DNA of 64,000 bases from Zhongshania sp. R06B22 (lineage in GTDB: Bacteria > Pseudomonadota > Gammaproteobacteria > Pseudomonadales > Spongiibacteraceae). A program made the translations under genes and the position numbers. Positions 904-10,247 of this stretch are shown in pieces. The notes under the pieces are model-generated. The model ran no database searches and was not told the origin of the DNA. It saw only the letters and a list, made by a program, of their open reading frames with translations. Location of the stretch: NCBI RefSeq assembly GCF_040892595.1, contig NZ_JBFRYB010000001.1, positions 1,178,001 to 1,242,000 on the forward strand, given 5' to 3'. The number at the start of each line of letters is the position of its first letter. The stretch's first letter is position 1.

Positions 904-1925
904 TTAAGCGAGCTCGGAGAGTTGCTGGCCGGCTAAGAGTGCGACCAAATTAGCGAATAGCACACTGCCGTTTTCCTTGCTCTGGCCTTTTTGCGCGGCA
1001 TCTATGCGGGTGGCGAGCTGCAGAAGTTTGCCGAGTTGAACGCTTTTTAAGCGGCGCAGCGCATTTTTGTAGAGTGTTTTGCGTTTGTCCCATACCCGGG
1101 CGCCATCTAAAACTCGGTCTACACCGCCGCCCTGTTCCAATTGCTGCGCGCATTGGTAGAGGGTGCGAATTTCTCGGGTGATGGCACCTAACATGGCGAT
1201 GTCTTCGCCGCCCTCGGCCTGCAGGCTATTTAGCATTTGCAGGGCATTGCCGGCATTGCCTGCCAGTGCGGTATCAATTAGCTTAAATACGTCATAGCGA
1301 GCGCTACTGGCGACGGCATTGGCGACAATGTCGGCGGTGATGGTTTTTTCACCGGCTAAAATTTTGAGTTTAGAAATTTCTTGGTCGGCGGCGAGTAGAT
1401 TACCCTCAACTCGGTCTGCCAAGAGCTGTACTGCGTCGTTATCGGCATTCAGACCAATATTGCGCATGCGCTGCATGATCCAGTTATTCAGATGTTGGCG
1501 ATCAATCGGCCAGACTTGAATAACGGCGCCAGCGCTGTCCAGCGCTTTCACCCACTTGCTGTTCATGCTGCGGCTGTCGAGCTTGCCACAGCTAACTAAT
1601 AAGATGTTGCTGCCGTCGGCGCGCTGCAGATATTCCTGTAGTGCCGCCGACGTTTTTTGATCCATTTTGCTGCCGCCAAGGCGGAGTTCAATAAGCTTGC
1701 GCTCGCCGAATAATGACATCGACTGGCCGGCGTCTAGCAATTGGCCCCAGTCAAAGCTGCGATCAACATTGAGGACTTCGCGCTCGCTAATACCTTCTTT
1801 TCGGCAGTGCTGGCGAATGGTGTCGCAACATTCCTGGGTAATAAGCAGTTCGTCGCCACACACTAAGTAGGCAGTCAGTAACTGCTTGCTGAGTTGTCCG
1901 GCGAGTTGTTCTGACCTTATCCGCA

Positions 1926-1926
<1 letters not shown>
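904..1926 (-). CDS. holA: DNA polymerase III subunit delta
   Basis: This is the delta subunit of the clamp-loader complex, which opens the beta sliding clamp during replication. The 340-residue length matches the family (E. coli 343). The N-terminal AAA-like fold is apparent in segments such as YLVCGDELLITQE near residue 20, and the C-terminal helical collar part includes the RRLKSVQLGKLL segment. The ATG overlaps the lptE stop codon by one base (TAATG), which indicates translational coupling. It is the last gene of the leuS-lptE-holA operon, an order shared with other Gammaproteobacteria. Confidence 0.96.
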
Positions 1927-4950
<3,024 letters not shown>

Positions 4951-5053
4951 GCTAAGAGGTCTATGAATAAGTGTCTATTTTTGCCCTCGCGGCGGGAGCT
5001 GTGGGCGTTTGCTTAAAACTACGCTCCGCAAGGGGCGGTATTCTTTAGTATTT

Positions 5054-5200
5054 CGTCATACTAGGCTGGATCGGGTATCCATGTGAGCGCGGCGAATGTC
5101 TTTGGTTTTAGCGGAGTACGCCGCGGTGACAAGTCTGCGGTCTATGGATCCTCAATCGAGTTGAGGATGACAGAATAAAGTGGATCGCAAGCAAGACCAC
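5054..5200 (+). repeat. Partial repeat head and small palindrome
   Basis: Positions 5054-5098 repeat the head seen at 5201 and 5600 (a GTCATAC start, then GATCGGGTAT, then CATGTGAGCG and GCGAATG). This copy is not followed by the long body of the other two. It is followed instead by a short palindrome, CCTCAATCGAGTTGAGG, around 5149-5165. No gene is supported here. The stretch 4951-5053 shows nothing else I can name. Confidence 0.6.
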
Positions 5201-5560
5201 CGTCATACCCGACCCCGATCGGGTATTCATGTGAGCGAAGCGAATGCCGTTGTTTTGATGCTCGCTAATTGAAATGTTTTGGAGATTTACTGTAAGCCTT
5301 GGTTTCGCCCTCGCTGGGCGACTAACTTTCTTTTTGCTTGGCCCAAAAATAAAGTAAGCAAAGAAAAAGGGCACCCTGCATCACCGTCGATGGCAAAAAA
5401 CGCCATCGATTCCCTCCGCGCTTCGCAAGCAACGGCGCGGGCAGCGTGCCCCGGAAAAAACTCGCCTCCGGCTCAAACAGTTTCCCGCTTAATCCGTTGC
5501 TTGCTGCAGTGCTCAGCGGTGCTGAAGGGACATTGGCGCGGGTTTCTATAGTTTTGGTAA
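5201..5560 (+). repeat. Structured intergenic repeat, direct copy A
   Basis: This is a unit of about 350 bases. The head begins CGTCATACCCGACCCCGATC at 5201. The body contains GGTTTCGCCCTCGCTGGGCG (5298-5317), a near-palindrome CTTTCTTTTT/AAAAATAAAG, the hairpin GATGGC-loop-GCCATC, and the segment CTCGCCTCCGGCTCAAACAG, ending near GGGACATTGGCG. It matches copy B closely over its whole length, with the two heads about 397 bases apart. Translations of it in several frames give open frames, but these are by-products of the repeat and not genes. Confidence 0.85.
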
Positions 5561-5596
5561 TAACTACATTGTTCGTGACGATGAGTATTCTTGGTG

Positions 5597-5945
5597 TCTT
5601 GTCATACCCGACTCCGATCGGGTATCCATGTGAGCGCAGCGAATGCCGTTGTCTCGATATCTGATCATCGGAATGTTTTTTGCGCCGACTGCAAGCCTTG
5701 GTTTCGCCCTCGCTGGGCGACTCACTTTCTTTTTGCTTGCCCAAAAAGAAAGTAAGCAAAGAAAAAAGGCACCCTACATCACCGTCGATGGCAAAAAGCG
5801 CCATCGATTCTGTCCGCGCTTCGCAAGTAACGGCGCGGGCAGCGTGCCCCGGAAAAAACTCGCCTCCGGCTCAAACAGTTTCCCGCTTAACCTGTTACTT
5901 GCTGCAGTGCTCAGCGGCGCTGAAGGGACATTGGCGTAAGCTGCA
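5597..5945 (+). repeat. Structured intergenic repeat, direct copy B
   Basis: This copy repeats A in order and orientation: head at 5600-5650, then GGTTTCGCCCTCGCTGGGCG, then a perfect 10-base stem CTTTCTTTTT/AAAAAGAAAG, then an 8-base stem TCGATGGC/GCCATCGA, then CTCGCCTCCGGCTCAAACAG and GGGACATTGGCG. Where A and B differ, B forms the better stems. I recall very similar sequence scattered through many gammaproteobacterial genomes, where it gives spurious hypothetical proteins; that is memory and not a search result. Confidence 0.85.
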
Positions 5946-6054
5946 AGTTTCTTAGCAAAACTACAAATTTTTCTGATGCCAGAATAAGGCACCGCTCGCA
6001 GTCCCGCTTTTGAACTCACCGAGCATCGCAGAAATTCAATGGGATGTTTTTAGC

Positions 6055-6272
6055 GAGGACTGTCTGAGCCGAAGGCGAGTTCCGCAGCGTTCCCATTGGA
6101 TTTTTGCGAGGAGAGGGTACCCGAAGGGTGAGTGATAGCGGGCGAATTTCTTGCTTACTTCTTTTTTCGTAAAAAGACAATTCGCTTTTTAATTGATCGC
6201 CGCTTTTTGGCGACCCGTAGGGTGAGGCACCTAGTGCCGAATAACTAAGTCGCCCAGGGAGGGCGAAAAAAG
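6055..6272 (-). repeat. Structured intergenic repeat, decayed inverted copy C
   Basis: Read on the minus strand this stretch has the landmarks of copies A and B in the same order: TTCGCCCTCCCTGGGCGAC (near 6250-6268), a T-rich/A-rich stem next to AAGTAAGC, then CTCGCCTTCGGCTCAGACAG (near 6058-6077). Between the landmarks it has diverged strongly. It is therefore an inverted and degenerate relative of A and B. Its outer end abuts the truncated GrpB-like reading frame. Confidence 0.6.
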
Positions 6273-6434
6273 GTCAATTAATATATCAATTACTGGTTTA
6301 GCTGCAAGGCCATATATTGTCTTGCTGCCAATATGGTGAACCCATAAATTCTTTATAGGCAAACTTGAGACTAACAATTGTTTTTCAATCATAAAATAGA
6401 TGGGGCCATTCATTTTCACAGTTAACAACTTCAA
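6231..6434 (-). pseudogene. Truncated GrpB-family (UPF0157) gene fragment
   Basis: A 67-codon frame contains HHIGSKTIYGLAAKPVIDIL, which matches the hallmark of the GrpB family (HIGSTxxxGLxAKPIIDI in typical members). GrpB-like proteins are usually about 170-190 residues and belong to the nucleotidyltransferase-like fold. Here similarity stops right after IDILID, and the last dozen codons are read from inverted repeat copy C (SPSLGD, the same peptide the repeat encodes elsewhere). The frame opens with a TTG with no clear ribosome site, and an N-terminal part also seems to be missing. I read it as a gene remnant cut by, or recombined with, the repeat. Confidence 0.65.
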
Positions 6435-6484
6435 TTCTTCACATTTACTCTGCTCTGCTTCTAGTTAGCAACTGCGCGTACTTG

Positions 6485-7162
6485 TTAACTTTTGTTTTCG
6501 AAATGGTTACTTAGTTCTTCGATTAAGCTGGCACATCCATTGTATTGTTTTTCAAATAGTAGAAGCGCCATAAAAAACGGGACTAGTCCGAATTCTGGCG
6601 GTGGTTGTATTTTCTCGACCCCTAAATCTAACCATATATTAGTTTGATCAACTGTCCCGAAAGAGGCGAGGGTGCCATGGTAATTGGGGTGCGCATACTC
6701 GCAGAGCAATTTATACATTGTGCCAAAATTGGAAAAATCTTTGCTTACATGTTTAATGCAGGTCAGTACATTGATAGCAGGTAATTTCGCACTTTGGTCT
6801 CGTCCACCCGAGACGGCCTTCATTAAAAAATCATCGAGCTGATCAATGTCTTTATTCTCTAGGTATTCCTCCAGCTTTTTTCGAAGCATAAAACATAAAG
6901 CACTTGTTTCTAATGCTGACCTCATCAAAATATATGCTGGCACTCTTCGATTTTGGTCATATAGCTCGATCGCAGATACAGAAATAGATGTAATTCGGTG
7001 GTACAAAAGCTCTTTTAGCGAGAGCGCTTTGAATGGGATTTTTGATTTCAGCGTCAATCCAGCCGGGTCAACACGAGTTGGCAAAGAGCTTTCAAATCGT
7101 CTCAATAACTCTTGTATATCACGTCGTATTGAGTCTTCGTTTATTTCTTTGAGTGATGGCAT
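6485..7162 (-). CDS. Helical accessory protein, DUF5677-like
   Basis: The protein has 225 residues, is probably all-helical, and has no signal peptide. Segments such as YILMRSALETSALCFML (around residues 76-92) and YKLLCEYAHPNYHGTL (around 146-161) resemble DUF5677-type proteins, which have a paired-helix fold somewhat like HEPN domains. No HEPN ribonuclease R-x4-6-H motif is visible, so nuclease activity should not be assumed. The gene is AT-rich compared with its core neighbours. It lies 98 bases downstream of the ParA-type gene on the same strand and has no clear Shine-Dalgarno site. The family call is tentative; the function is unknown. Confidence 0.75.
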   Translation of the reverse strand: MPSLKEINEDSIRRDIQELLRRFESSLPTRVDPAGLTLKSKIPFKALSLKELLYHRITSISVSAIELYDQNRRVPAYILMRSALETSALCFMLRKKLEEYLENKDIDQLDDFLMKAVSGGRDQSAKLPAINVLTCIKHVSKDFSNFGTMYKLLCEYAHPNYHGTLASFGTVDQTNIWLDLGVEKIQPPPEFGLVPFFMALLLFEKQYNGCASLIEELSNHFENKS

Positions 7163-7260
7163 AGTTAATTAAACGCCTTACACTCGGCCAGACGAAGCCG
7201 TAGGTTTTGTTGTCCCAGCCGCAGCGCGGTCGGATTGCCTGGCCTTGTATGTTCCGCTGA
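7163..7260. other. GC-rich inverted-repeat spacer between two accessory genes
   Basis: This spacer is clearly more GC-rich than the genes on either side. It contains imperfect inverted arms, GGCCAG near 7187 and CTGGCC near 7240, extended outward by partial matches (TTACACTC against TTGTATG). In between lies a small CCGCAGCGCGG palindrome. It begins right after the ParA stop codon. Its layout recalls an integron attC site, but the core sites do not match RYYYAAC/GTTRRRY. Confidence 0.4.
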
Positions 7261-8313
7261 TTAAAGTTTTGATACTAAAGACTCAATTGTTTCTTTGCAT
7301 TTATCACGCTGCTCTTTGGCAACCTGTATTTTTTCTCCATACACTTCGTAGGTATGCTGATCCATTTTACTGAGAGGCAAACCTTGGTTTGCGGCTACCA
7401 CGCCAGCGCTATTGAAGTCCCTTAACTCGACGCTATATGCTGCCTCAAAATCACTCACATTGTTAATTTCAACACTTGAAGTTTCAAATTTGTCAGGATT
7501 ATTTTTAAACTCAGTGTACATTTTTTGAATTGCTTCATTTGACAGCGCCTTAAATGCATGTGCGGCTCCCTTTTTTTGCGTGAATCTATTACCGAGCAAA
7601 AATGAAATCTTAGGTAATTCAAGGTTATGACTTTTTGCCTTAGAGGCAAATGTGTACTTACCATATACGGGATGACTTACAGATGTACCCCAAATAAGAT
7701 TGAACAACCCTGTTATTGCAAAAATTGAAGAATCGTCTGCGTTTATGGGGACTAGTAATTTATCACCACCCACTATCGCTAATTGGGTGTAAATTGCAAA
7801 GCTAGGATTTGTATCAATAAAGTAGGTGCAAGGTCTTTCAGTATTAATTCTCTTTTTAGTCAATTCTCGAATTATAGAGTGAATTTTTATCCACGGATTG
7901 TCTGAGGCAGATAATGGGGTGGCCTCCGCCCGCTCAGAAAGTAGTGGTGCGATAAGCTCCAGATTACCATCCCCAGAAATCAGATATAAATTGTCGCTAA
8001 CATTACCGTTTACATCACTCAATTTAGTGATGAATTTATTTACATCCGCATCCCCGTTAAGGGTTGCCTCTGTAATGTAACCAACAATGCTTTGTGGTTC
8101 ATACTTCGATATCAACTCCTGGAGTTTCGCTTCACTAGGTTTGCCCCCTCCCATCAACATTGAAGATGAATTTGCCTGTGGGCACATATCCACAACAATT
8201 ACATCACGATCCAAATTCTTTTCTGCATATACTGATGCCACATGAAAAGTGATAGTACTTTTCCCGACACCTCCTTTATTGTTCCACATTACATAACTTT
8301 TATTCACTTCCAT
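7261..8313 (-). CDS. Orphan ParA-family ATPase
   Basis: This is a P-loop ATPase of the ParA/MinD/Soj type. The deviant Walker A KGGVGKST is at residues 13-20 with the signature lysine Lys13, and Walker A' is VVDMCPQAN around residues 40-48 (Asp42). At 350 residues it is longer than plasmid ParA because of extra segments after residue 60. No ParB, CheW, flagellar or plasmid partition gene is nearby, so a chromosome or plasmid partition role is not supported. A good Shine-Dalgarno site (GAGG, 7 bases before the ATG) is present. The gene is AT-rich and sits with the DUF5677-like gene in the island between leuS and lnt, which suggests horizontal acquisition and a mobile or defence-type accessory function. 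Confidence 0.9.
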   Translation of the reverse strand: MEVNKSYVMWNNKGGVGKSTITFHVASVYAEKNLDRDVIVVDMCPQANSSSMLMGGGKPSEAKLQELISKYEPQSIVGYITEATLNGDADVNKFITKLSDVNGNVSDNLYLISGDGNLELIAPLLSERAEATPLSASDNPWIKIHSIIRELTKKRINTERPCTYFIDTNPSFAIYTQLAIVGGDKLLVPINADDSSIFAITGLFNLIWGTSVSHPVYGKYTFASKAKSHNLELPKISFLLGNRFTQKKGAAHAFKALSNEAIQKMYTEFKNNPDKFETSSVEINNVSDFEAAYSVELRDFNSAGVVAANQGLPLSKMDQHTYEVYGEKIQVAKEQRDKCKETIESLVSKL

Positions 8314-8759
8314 TGCTTATCCTCGCTTTTGTGATAATTGGCTCAATCTAACTTGGTAACATAACAGTATCTATGGACTCGCGCCTTTTATCACTCTGCC
8401 CCCTTATCAAAGCAGAGACTTTAGTGAGCGTTAAAAAAATTAGGGGAATTCAATGAGATGGCTGCATCACTATTAATGAGCACCGGTCAAACGACGACTA
8501 ATTCCCTGTATTTCTACCAGATATTCCCTGCTCCTGATCATAGCGCGATTTCAATGAGTTATGTAAGTCGTCAGGGAGATAGTGGGAATGGCGCTACTGT
8601 TCACCGCGCCGTAAGACACAGAGATAACAAAATATGAGAATGTATAAGCAGTGAATTTCTGGCGAAATTGGCGTGTTGAGACACGTATATAGCCAATTTT
8701 ATTAACTGCTTAAGTTGATGATTCGAAATTCAGCGACTCATTGGCACTATTCGCCTTGA
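8314..8759. other. Gene-free stretch with a nested inverted repeat
   Basis: No reading frame here is convincing. The part near the ParA gene holds its ribosome site. At 8645-8712 there is a nested inverted repeat of 68 bases: outer arms TAAGCAGT/ACTGCTTA, inner arms AAATTGGC/GCCAATTT and a GTGT/ACAC tip. Around 8500-8545 there are two direct ATTCCCTG words (ATTCCCTGTATTTC and ATATTCCCTGCTCC). The stretch marks the boundary of the accessory island on the lnt side. Confidence 0.55.
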
Positions 8760-10247
8760 TCAGGCCGGACTCGACCGGCGTCTAAATCCTGCGCATAGCA
8801 CCAATCCGATACACAGAAGAATTATCGGCGTTGAGCCGTAACGCGTGAACGGTGTGGTGCCGCTGCGGGCGTGTACTAGGCCTTTTAGGTTGGTGGCGGT
8901 GAACGAGGGAATGCGAGTGCGGATATTGCCGCGATGATCGACCAGTGCGGTGATGCCGGTGCTAGTGACACGAATTAGCTCGCGGCCATTTTCCAGCGCG
9001 CGCATTTGCGCCATTTGCATATGCTGGTCCGGGCCGATTGAGTGACCGAACCAGGCGTCGTTACTGATGGTGAATAGCAGATCGGAATCGCGTGCGCTGC
9101 GGGCAACGAGGTCGGGGTAGGCTACTTCGTAGCAAATTGATGGCGCTAGCTGCCAGCCTTTCACTTGCAGGTGCCCCTGATCTGGGCCGCCACGGGAAAA
9201 GCTCGACATTGGCAGGTCAAAGAATTTAATCAGACCACGAATGTAATGGGCCAAGGGCACATACTCGCCAAAAGGAACCAAGCGTTGCTTGTGATATATG
9301 CCTTCGCCGCCGCTGATAACCATTACTGAGTTGTACATGTCGTCGTCAGATTTGGTGGGAACGCCAGTGATAAGGGCGCTGTTGTTGGCCGCTGCGCGTT
9401 CGGCAATATAATCAAAAAAAGATGTGACGTTGTGATAGAGCGCAGGGATGGCGGCTTCTGGCCAGATCACTAGATCGGAGTCTGCCCACAATTGCTCAGA
9501 GGCCAGATCGTAGAGTTCAAGTGTCGCCCAGTACTGTTCGTAGGCCCATTTTCTTTCTTGCGAGATATTGGATTGCACCGCGCCAATACGCAGCGGTGGT
9601 TTGGCGTCGGCTGTGGTCCATTCATGTTGCTGCAGAGAATAGCCCAAGCCAAATAAAGCGATGCAGCCGGCCAGAGTGGCATAGCCTTGACGTTTTATTG
9701 ATGGGCTGGCGGTGATGCAGTGGGCAAGCGCTGCGCCGCTTAATGCCACCCAAAAGCTCAGTCCGTAAACACCGATGATGGGCGACCATCCGGCCATGGC
9801 GGTGTGCAGATGTCCATAACCGAGGTAGAGCCAGGGAAAGCCGGTTAATACCCAACCACGCAGCCATTCTGATAATACCCACATGGCGGCAAAGCCCAGG
9901 GTCTTGCCCGCAATACCATCGCGAATCCAACGACAGTAGCAGTAGCCGAAGAGCGCGGGTACCAAGCCCAGACCGATACAAAATACAGCGGTCATGGGGA
10001 TGGCAAGTACCGCGGGGGTTTCGCCGAAATCGTGCATGGCGACATAAACCCAGGACACGCCGGTGGCAAAGCTGGCGCTGCCAAAACACCAGCTAAGCAT
10101 AAAGCCCTGTTTTGCTGAGGCGGTGTTCATACTGGCGGCGAGGGTGGCCATGGCAATAATGGCTAGCCACCACAAGTCAAAGGGGGCGAGTGAAAGGGTA
10201 AGGCTAGCGCCGGCGACTGCAACAAATAGGTAGGGACTGATTTTCAC
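8760..10247 (-). CDS. lnt: Apolipoprotein N-acyltransferase
   Basis: This inner-membrane enzyme adds the third acyl chain to the N-terminal cysteine of lipoproteins. The N-terminal half (to about residue 200) holds several membrane segments, and the second half is the nitrilase-like domain. The catalytic triad is visible as Glu264 (WPEAAIP), Lys320 (YHKQRLVPFGE) and Cys372 (SICYEVAYP), spaced as in the family. The start is GTG. It normally lies next to corC, but here an FMN-dependent glutamate-synthase-like gene lies between them. Confidence 0.96.
   Translation of the reverse strand: MKISPYLFVAVAGASLTLSLAPFDLWWLAIIAMATLAASMNTASAKQGFMLSWCFGSASFATGVSWVYVAMHDFGETPAVLAIPMTAVFCIGLGLVPALFGYCYCRWIRDGIAGKTLGFAAMWVLSEWLRGWVLTGFPWLYLGYGHLHTAMAGWSPIIGVYGLSFWVALSGAALAHCITASPSIKRQGYATLAGCIALFGLGYSLQQHEWTTADAKPPLRIGAVQSNISQERKWAYEQYWATLELYDLASEQLWADSDLVIWPEAAIPALYHNVTSFFDYIAERAAANNSALITGVPTKSDDDMYNSVMVISGGEGIYHKQRLVPFGEYVPLAHYIRGLIKFFDLPMSSFSRGGPDQGHLQVKGWQLAPSICYEVAYPDLVARSARDSDLLFTISNDAWFGHSIGPDQHMQMAQMRALENGRELIRVTSTGITALVDHRGNIRTRIPSFTATNLKGLVHARSGTTPFTRYGSTPIILLCIGLVLCAGFRRRSSPA

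Follow-up and report, generated by a model that had tools for sequence, protein, structure and literature searches.

The locus between lnt (8760–10247) and leuS (2434–4893) in Zhongshania sp. R06B22 raises the question of what two neighboring genes in an AT-rich island do, and whether they do it together. We analyzed a 64,000-nucleotide stretch of this genome (3.86 Mb, seven contigs), referred to here as the window. The initial annotation had described two AT-rich genes on the same strand in an island, and had read them as a candidate defense or mobile-element system composed of an orphan ParA-type ATPase and a DUF5677-like helical protein. The description itself was accurate: the ORFs lie exactly where they had been placed, both on the minus strand, at 7261–8313 (the ATPase, 350 aa) and 6485–7162 (the DUF5677-like protein, 225 aa), with a spacing of 98 bp. 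The GC content is 38–43% across 6001–8750, compared with approximately 51% outside. Both genes are at approximately 39% GC against 51% for the window; for the ATPase gene, the values are 38.9% overall and 34.6% at third positions (window, 50.6%).

The island was missing in congeners, with both genes absent from the lnt–leuS site in all 12 congeneric genomes fetched, and in 10 of these the spacing between lnt and leuS, taken from alignment ends, was approximately 70–210 bp. In the two nearest congeners (L040 and L041), a repeat block corresponding to 5000–6290 of the window was present at the same locus, and a different ORF of 171–182 aa without a Pfam match stood in place of both window genes (L040, 442–957; L041, 400–948), indicating that the lnt–leuS interval is a small spot with variable content. 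These observations support horizontal acquisition of the ATPase gene, which is plausibly an accessory or mobile-element gene. The repeat block at 5000–6290 is intergenic, lies on the leuS side at the island border, and recurs across the genome as dozens of partial matches (the whole query matched 85 other sites), which cluster near 159, 542, 591–637, and 823–833 kb of contig 1. Just upstream of the ATPase gene is a dispersed intergenic repeat of approximately 250 bp (8359–8604), with seven other genome copies at 68–76% identity and no Rfam match. The 98-bp spacer between the two genes (7163–7260, minus strand) has no other copy in the genome and folded no better than shuffled sequences, and no known RNA families were found in 4800–9000.

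A scan of 84,980 species, each represented by a single genome, revealed 17 genomes carrying an ATPase 63–91% identical to that of the window, a lower bound because the scan detects close relatives only; these belong to Pseudomonadota, Bacteroidota, and Cyanobacteriota. None of the 17 encoded a homologue of the DUF5677-like protein. Its assignment is itself weak (E = 8.4e−6, 26.4 bits against the Pfam cut-off of 27.1), its single-sequence structure model was unusable (pLDDT 37), and nothing useful on DUF5677 function was found in the literature. Among 398 sampled Pseudomonadota, one distant homologue was detected (31% identity, L057), and none of the ORFs in its 2.9-kb stretch encodes a ParA. 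Homologues were found neither in phages nor in a further set of relatives searched; an empty search alone is weak evidence, but the query recovered the window genome's own copy in two of the searches. Comparison of the relatives' flanks, the neighborhood check that the initial annotation had called for, showed homologues of the two proteins never adjacent to one another, and no DUF5677-like gene adjoined any ATPase relative. The proposed ParA–DUF5677 system, for which the common strand, the short spacing, and the shared AT-richness had spoken, is rejected on this missing co-occurrence, the very outcome that the initial annotation had set against it, and we regard it as scarcely credible. The DUF5677-like gene is an independent neighbor at the same insertion spot, unrelated to the ATPase. 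Thus, what survives of the earlier idea of a defense or mobile-element system is a lone, acquired ParA that is plausibly accessory, without the DUF5677 partner.

The ATPase matched Pfam AAA_31 (2.7e−14) and carries the motifs that define the ParA/MinD superfamily, namely KGGxxK[S/T] with the signature and catalytic lysines, the A' aspartate, and Walker B. The deviant Walker A motif, NNKGGVGKS (residues 11–19, lysines K13 and K18; 8257–8283, minus strand), which contains KGGVGKS, was invariant in 17 of 17 aligned sequences; the A' motif is DMCPQAN and the Walker B motif FIDTNPS, and K13, K18, D42, and D167 were invariant in the same alignment. The C-terminal half also contains long invariant blocks, such as DFNSAGVVAAN, and LLGNRFTQ occurred in nearly all of the 17 sequences. 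The phrog_164 profile, annotated as “ParA-like partition protein,” matched nearly the whole protein (1e−31 over residues 3–334). An AlphaFold model (pLDDT 71.6, pTM 0.80) has the ParA fold, with ParA/Soj proteins as the best Foldseek matches (E down to 5e−9). The Soj/ParA proteins of ParABS systems (PDB 8ray, 8jmj, and 6iub) share this fold with the window ATPase, but the identity is 14–17%, and the window protein is approximately 90 residues longer and has no ParB. The best sequence match among solved structures was DIP2308 of Corynebacterium diphtheriae (PDB 3pg5, uncharacterized; comparable in length at 361 aa, E = 4.6e−7), although this match covers only residues 9–203. The PADLOC defense models matched weakly and solely at the P-loop (lowest E = 0.0033).

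Close relatives of the ATPase are rare. None was present in the 397 other sampled Pseudomonadota genomes, nine of which have a relative at 33–38% identity; 395 sampled Bacteroidota genomes yielded no relative except one already known, and a scan of viral contigs yielded one close relative. The nearest relative, from Chitinimonas, is 91% identical at the protein level and 82% at the DNA level (dN 0.054, dS 1.49), and against all other relatives dS was saturated at dN values of 0.11–0.31. In the phylogenetic tree, the window ATPase joined Chitinimonas and then Vibrionaceae, within a well-supported set that also holds seven Bacteroidota sequences; other Pseudomonadota ATPases fell outside this set, and at least two changes are forced for Pseudomonadota. 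Within the window ATPase clade, which occurs mainly on the chromosomes of three phyla, identities ranged from 61 to 94%. The distribution, the dN and dS values, and the mixing of phyla in the tree together indicate a gene that is rare and patchy, has moved between phyla, and is under strong purifying selection, with the catalytic motifs retained. In Cyanobacteria, two copies (L017, 3600–4648; L018, 5995–7147) are each split into two frames, which may reflect decay or sequencing error.

The ATPase gene travels by itself. The 2-kb flanks of the chromosomal loci had no DNA in common except between two sister Chryseobacterium genomes and in short repeats. Within 1.2 kb of 33 ATPase relatives, no ORF of at least 30 aa recurred other than prophage repressors and a few isolated pairs, and no small conserved partner was found. 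Apart from the Chryseobacterium sisters, the relatives have no neighbors in common, so it is the ATPase gene by itself that is mobile. As for a ParABS arrangement, no recurrent ORF that could encode a ParB or other centromere-binding protein was found in these 33 neighborhoods, and there was no flanking DNA common to the relatives that could represent a parS centromere, a comparison that reveals conserved sites only. The initial annotation of an orphan ParA-type ATPase with intact Walker A and A' motifs therefore stands, with the catalytic residues invariant and no ParB near the window copy. In Vibrio anguillarum (L003), the ATPase gene lies within an array of eight attC-like repeats spaced approximately 600–1200 bp apart, so that the unit there is an integron gene cassette; the attC pattern search at the window copy and the other loci missed this array, which served as the positive control, and so carries no weight. 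Short palindromic REP-like repeats, such as GCACGGATTATAAATCCGTGC, flank Bacteroidota copies (L006, L009, and L010); they may be there by chance or mark an insertion route. Some chromosomal neighborhoods of the ATPase matched defense and toxin–antitoxin models, among them those of Lamassu, restriction-modification, HipA, BrnT, and SieB.

More distant relatives have a different setting. The initial annotation had noted that no phage or plasmid genes lie nearby, and this holds for the window copy but not for relatives at 31–37% identity, whose carriers include plasmids, an ICE, and prophages. Matches were found in 198 plasmid records, 153 of them covering at least 80% of the query, and many of these plasmids are 3–8 kb in size and non-mobilizable. 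In the 11 records examined, a further ParA was encoded by all six plasmids larger than 10 kb and by none of the five smaller than 10 kb, two of which carry the same protein; in one case, a ParA–ParG pair lies directly beside the solitary ATPase gene. The solitary protein is thus not the only partition ATPase of the six larger plasmids, and on such plasmids it is probably not the partition ATPase. In an ICE of E. coli LF82, a relative is located among the conjugation genes on the opposite strand. In Pseudomonas phage phi297, Klebsiella phage ST11-VIM1phi8.2, and a Salmonella element, a relative follows directly downstream of the repressor on the same strand. The same order was found in an E. 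coli prophage element (L078–L080, about 1560–3586), in all three chromosomal copies examined; of 5426 complete E. coli genomes, 71 carry this ParA family gene. The place directly behind a prophage repressor is that of conversion genes of the lambda rex type. Because all of these relatives are only 31–37% identical to the window ATPase, their contexts may not transfer to it.

A precedent for an orphan ParA with a function of its own is ParI, encoded on a genomic island of Pseudomonas putida KT2440, which destabilizes IncP-7 plasmids in a manner that requires its Walker A motif (PMC9178275, PMC8544851); in the literature searched, ParI was the only solitary ParA found as an interference factor. 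Like ParI, the window ATPase is an orphan ParA with the KGGVGKS motif in an acquired chromosomal island (PMC9178275), absent from the 12 congeners and without ParB. The likeness drawn here is one of anatomy, and the IncP-7 plasmids are targets of ParI. By this analogy, we tentatively favor, at somewhat less than even confidence, the reading that the window ATPase is an orphan ParA without ParB or a conserved centromere site, mobile as a single gene, that may interfere with the partition of competing replicons. An intact ATPase, the missing partner, the cargo position, and a separate partition ATPase alongside all fit ParI-like action. In such a mechanism, the ATP-bound dimer would bind nucleoid DNA, as other ParAs do, and would compete or co-assemble with the ParA of another replicon; competing plasmids or phage-plasmids would then be mis-partitioned and lost, as with ParI. 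No dedicated partner would be needed, because the target would be the competitor's own partition apparatus or DNA. With a little more reserve still, we suggest that an autonomous, partnerless ParA could serve as a one-gene factor of immunity or inter-element competition, passed between phyla as a single gene (in Vibrio as an integron cassette), that would eliminate or exclude competing replicons by poisoning their partition.

The ATPase could instead be an anti-phage or superinfection-exclusion factor, expressed from a lysogen or an island and acting on replication or DNA positioning and not on plasmid partition. The Rex-like position of relatives in several prophages, immediately after the repressor, would suit such a factor, as would the chromosomal neighborhoods that match Lamassu and the other models; however, PADLOC models match the ATPase no further than the P-loop, and we are not aware of any ParA that acts directly on phages, so that we consider this role a live but rather unlikely alternative. 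Strong purifying selection on a gene that brings no partner along would also be expected of a host-positioning or regulatory ParA, such as PpfA, McdA, or BcsQ, whose partner is a host protein of wide conservation, and orphan ParAs with such functions are known (PMC9178275). PpfA, McdA, and BcsQ, however, sit in defined host pathways, whereas the window ATPase has no constant neighbor, and its rare and patchy occurrence and its crossing of phyla likewise speak against a host role, which we judge to be an equally live but improbable alternative.

The gene could, alternatively, be a relic or spare partition gene, either left behind by integrated plasmids or serving the ParB-free upkeep of small plasmids, with no interference involved. 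The many small plasmids that carry relatives and the PHROGs annotation as a ParA-like partition protein point in this direction. Nevertheless, no consistent replication or par genes were found beside the chromosomal copies read, a separate ParA is present on every one of the six larger plasmids, and the low dN/dS argues against a relic; this explanation seems to us distinctly improbable.

Both orphan ParA proteins and phrog_164 are already known kinds, and the window ATPase is a further member, although no published study of its clade was found in the literature searched. The phrog_164 proteins (“ParA family protein” at NCBI, approximately 350 aa, on plasmids and in temperate phages) have the same length as the window ATPase and likewise no adjacent ParB, and the motifs WNNKGGVGK, CPQAN, and D-NPSF are conserved along the whole protein at 31–37% identity. 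The window clade differs from them as a separate, tight, and mainly chromosomal branch. Orphan ParA genes are common and are mostly annotated as partition proteins. If the window ATPase does exclude competing replicons, many of the “ParA family proteins” encoded on small plasmids or behind prophage repressors would be competition genes and not partition genes. A partnerless clade at 63–91% identity under constant selection, extending from Gammaproteobacteria to Bacteroidota and Cyanobacteria, indicates that the function of a lone ParA is selectable by itself.
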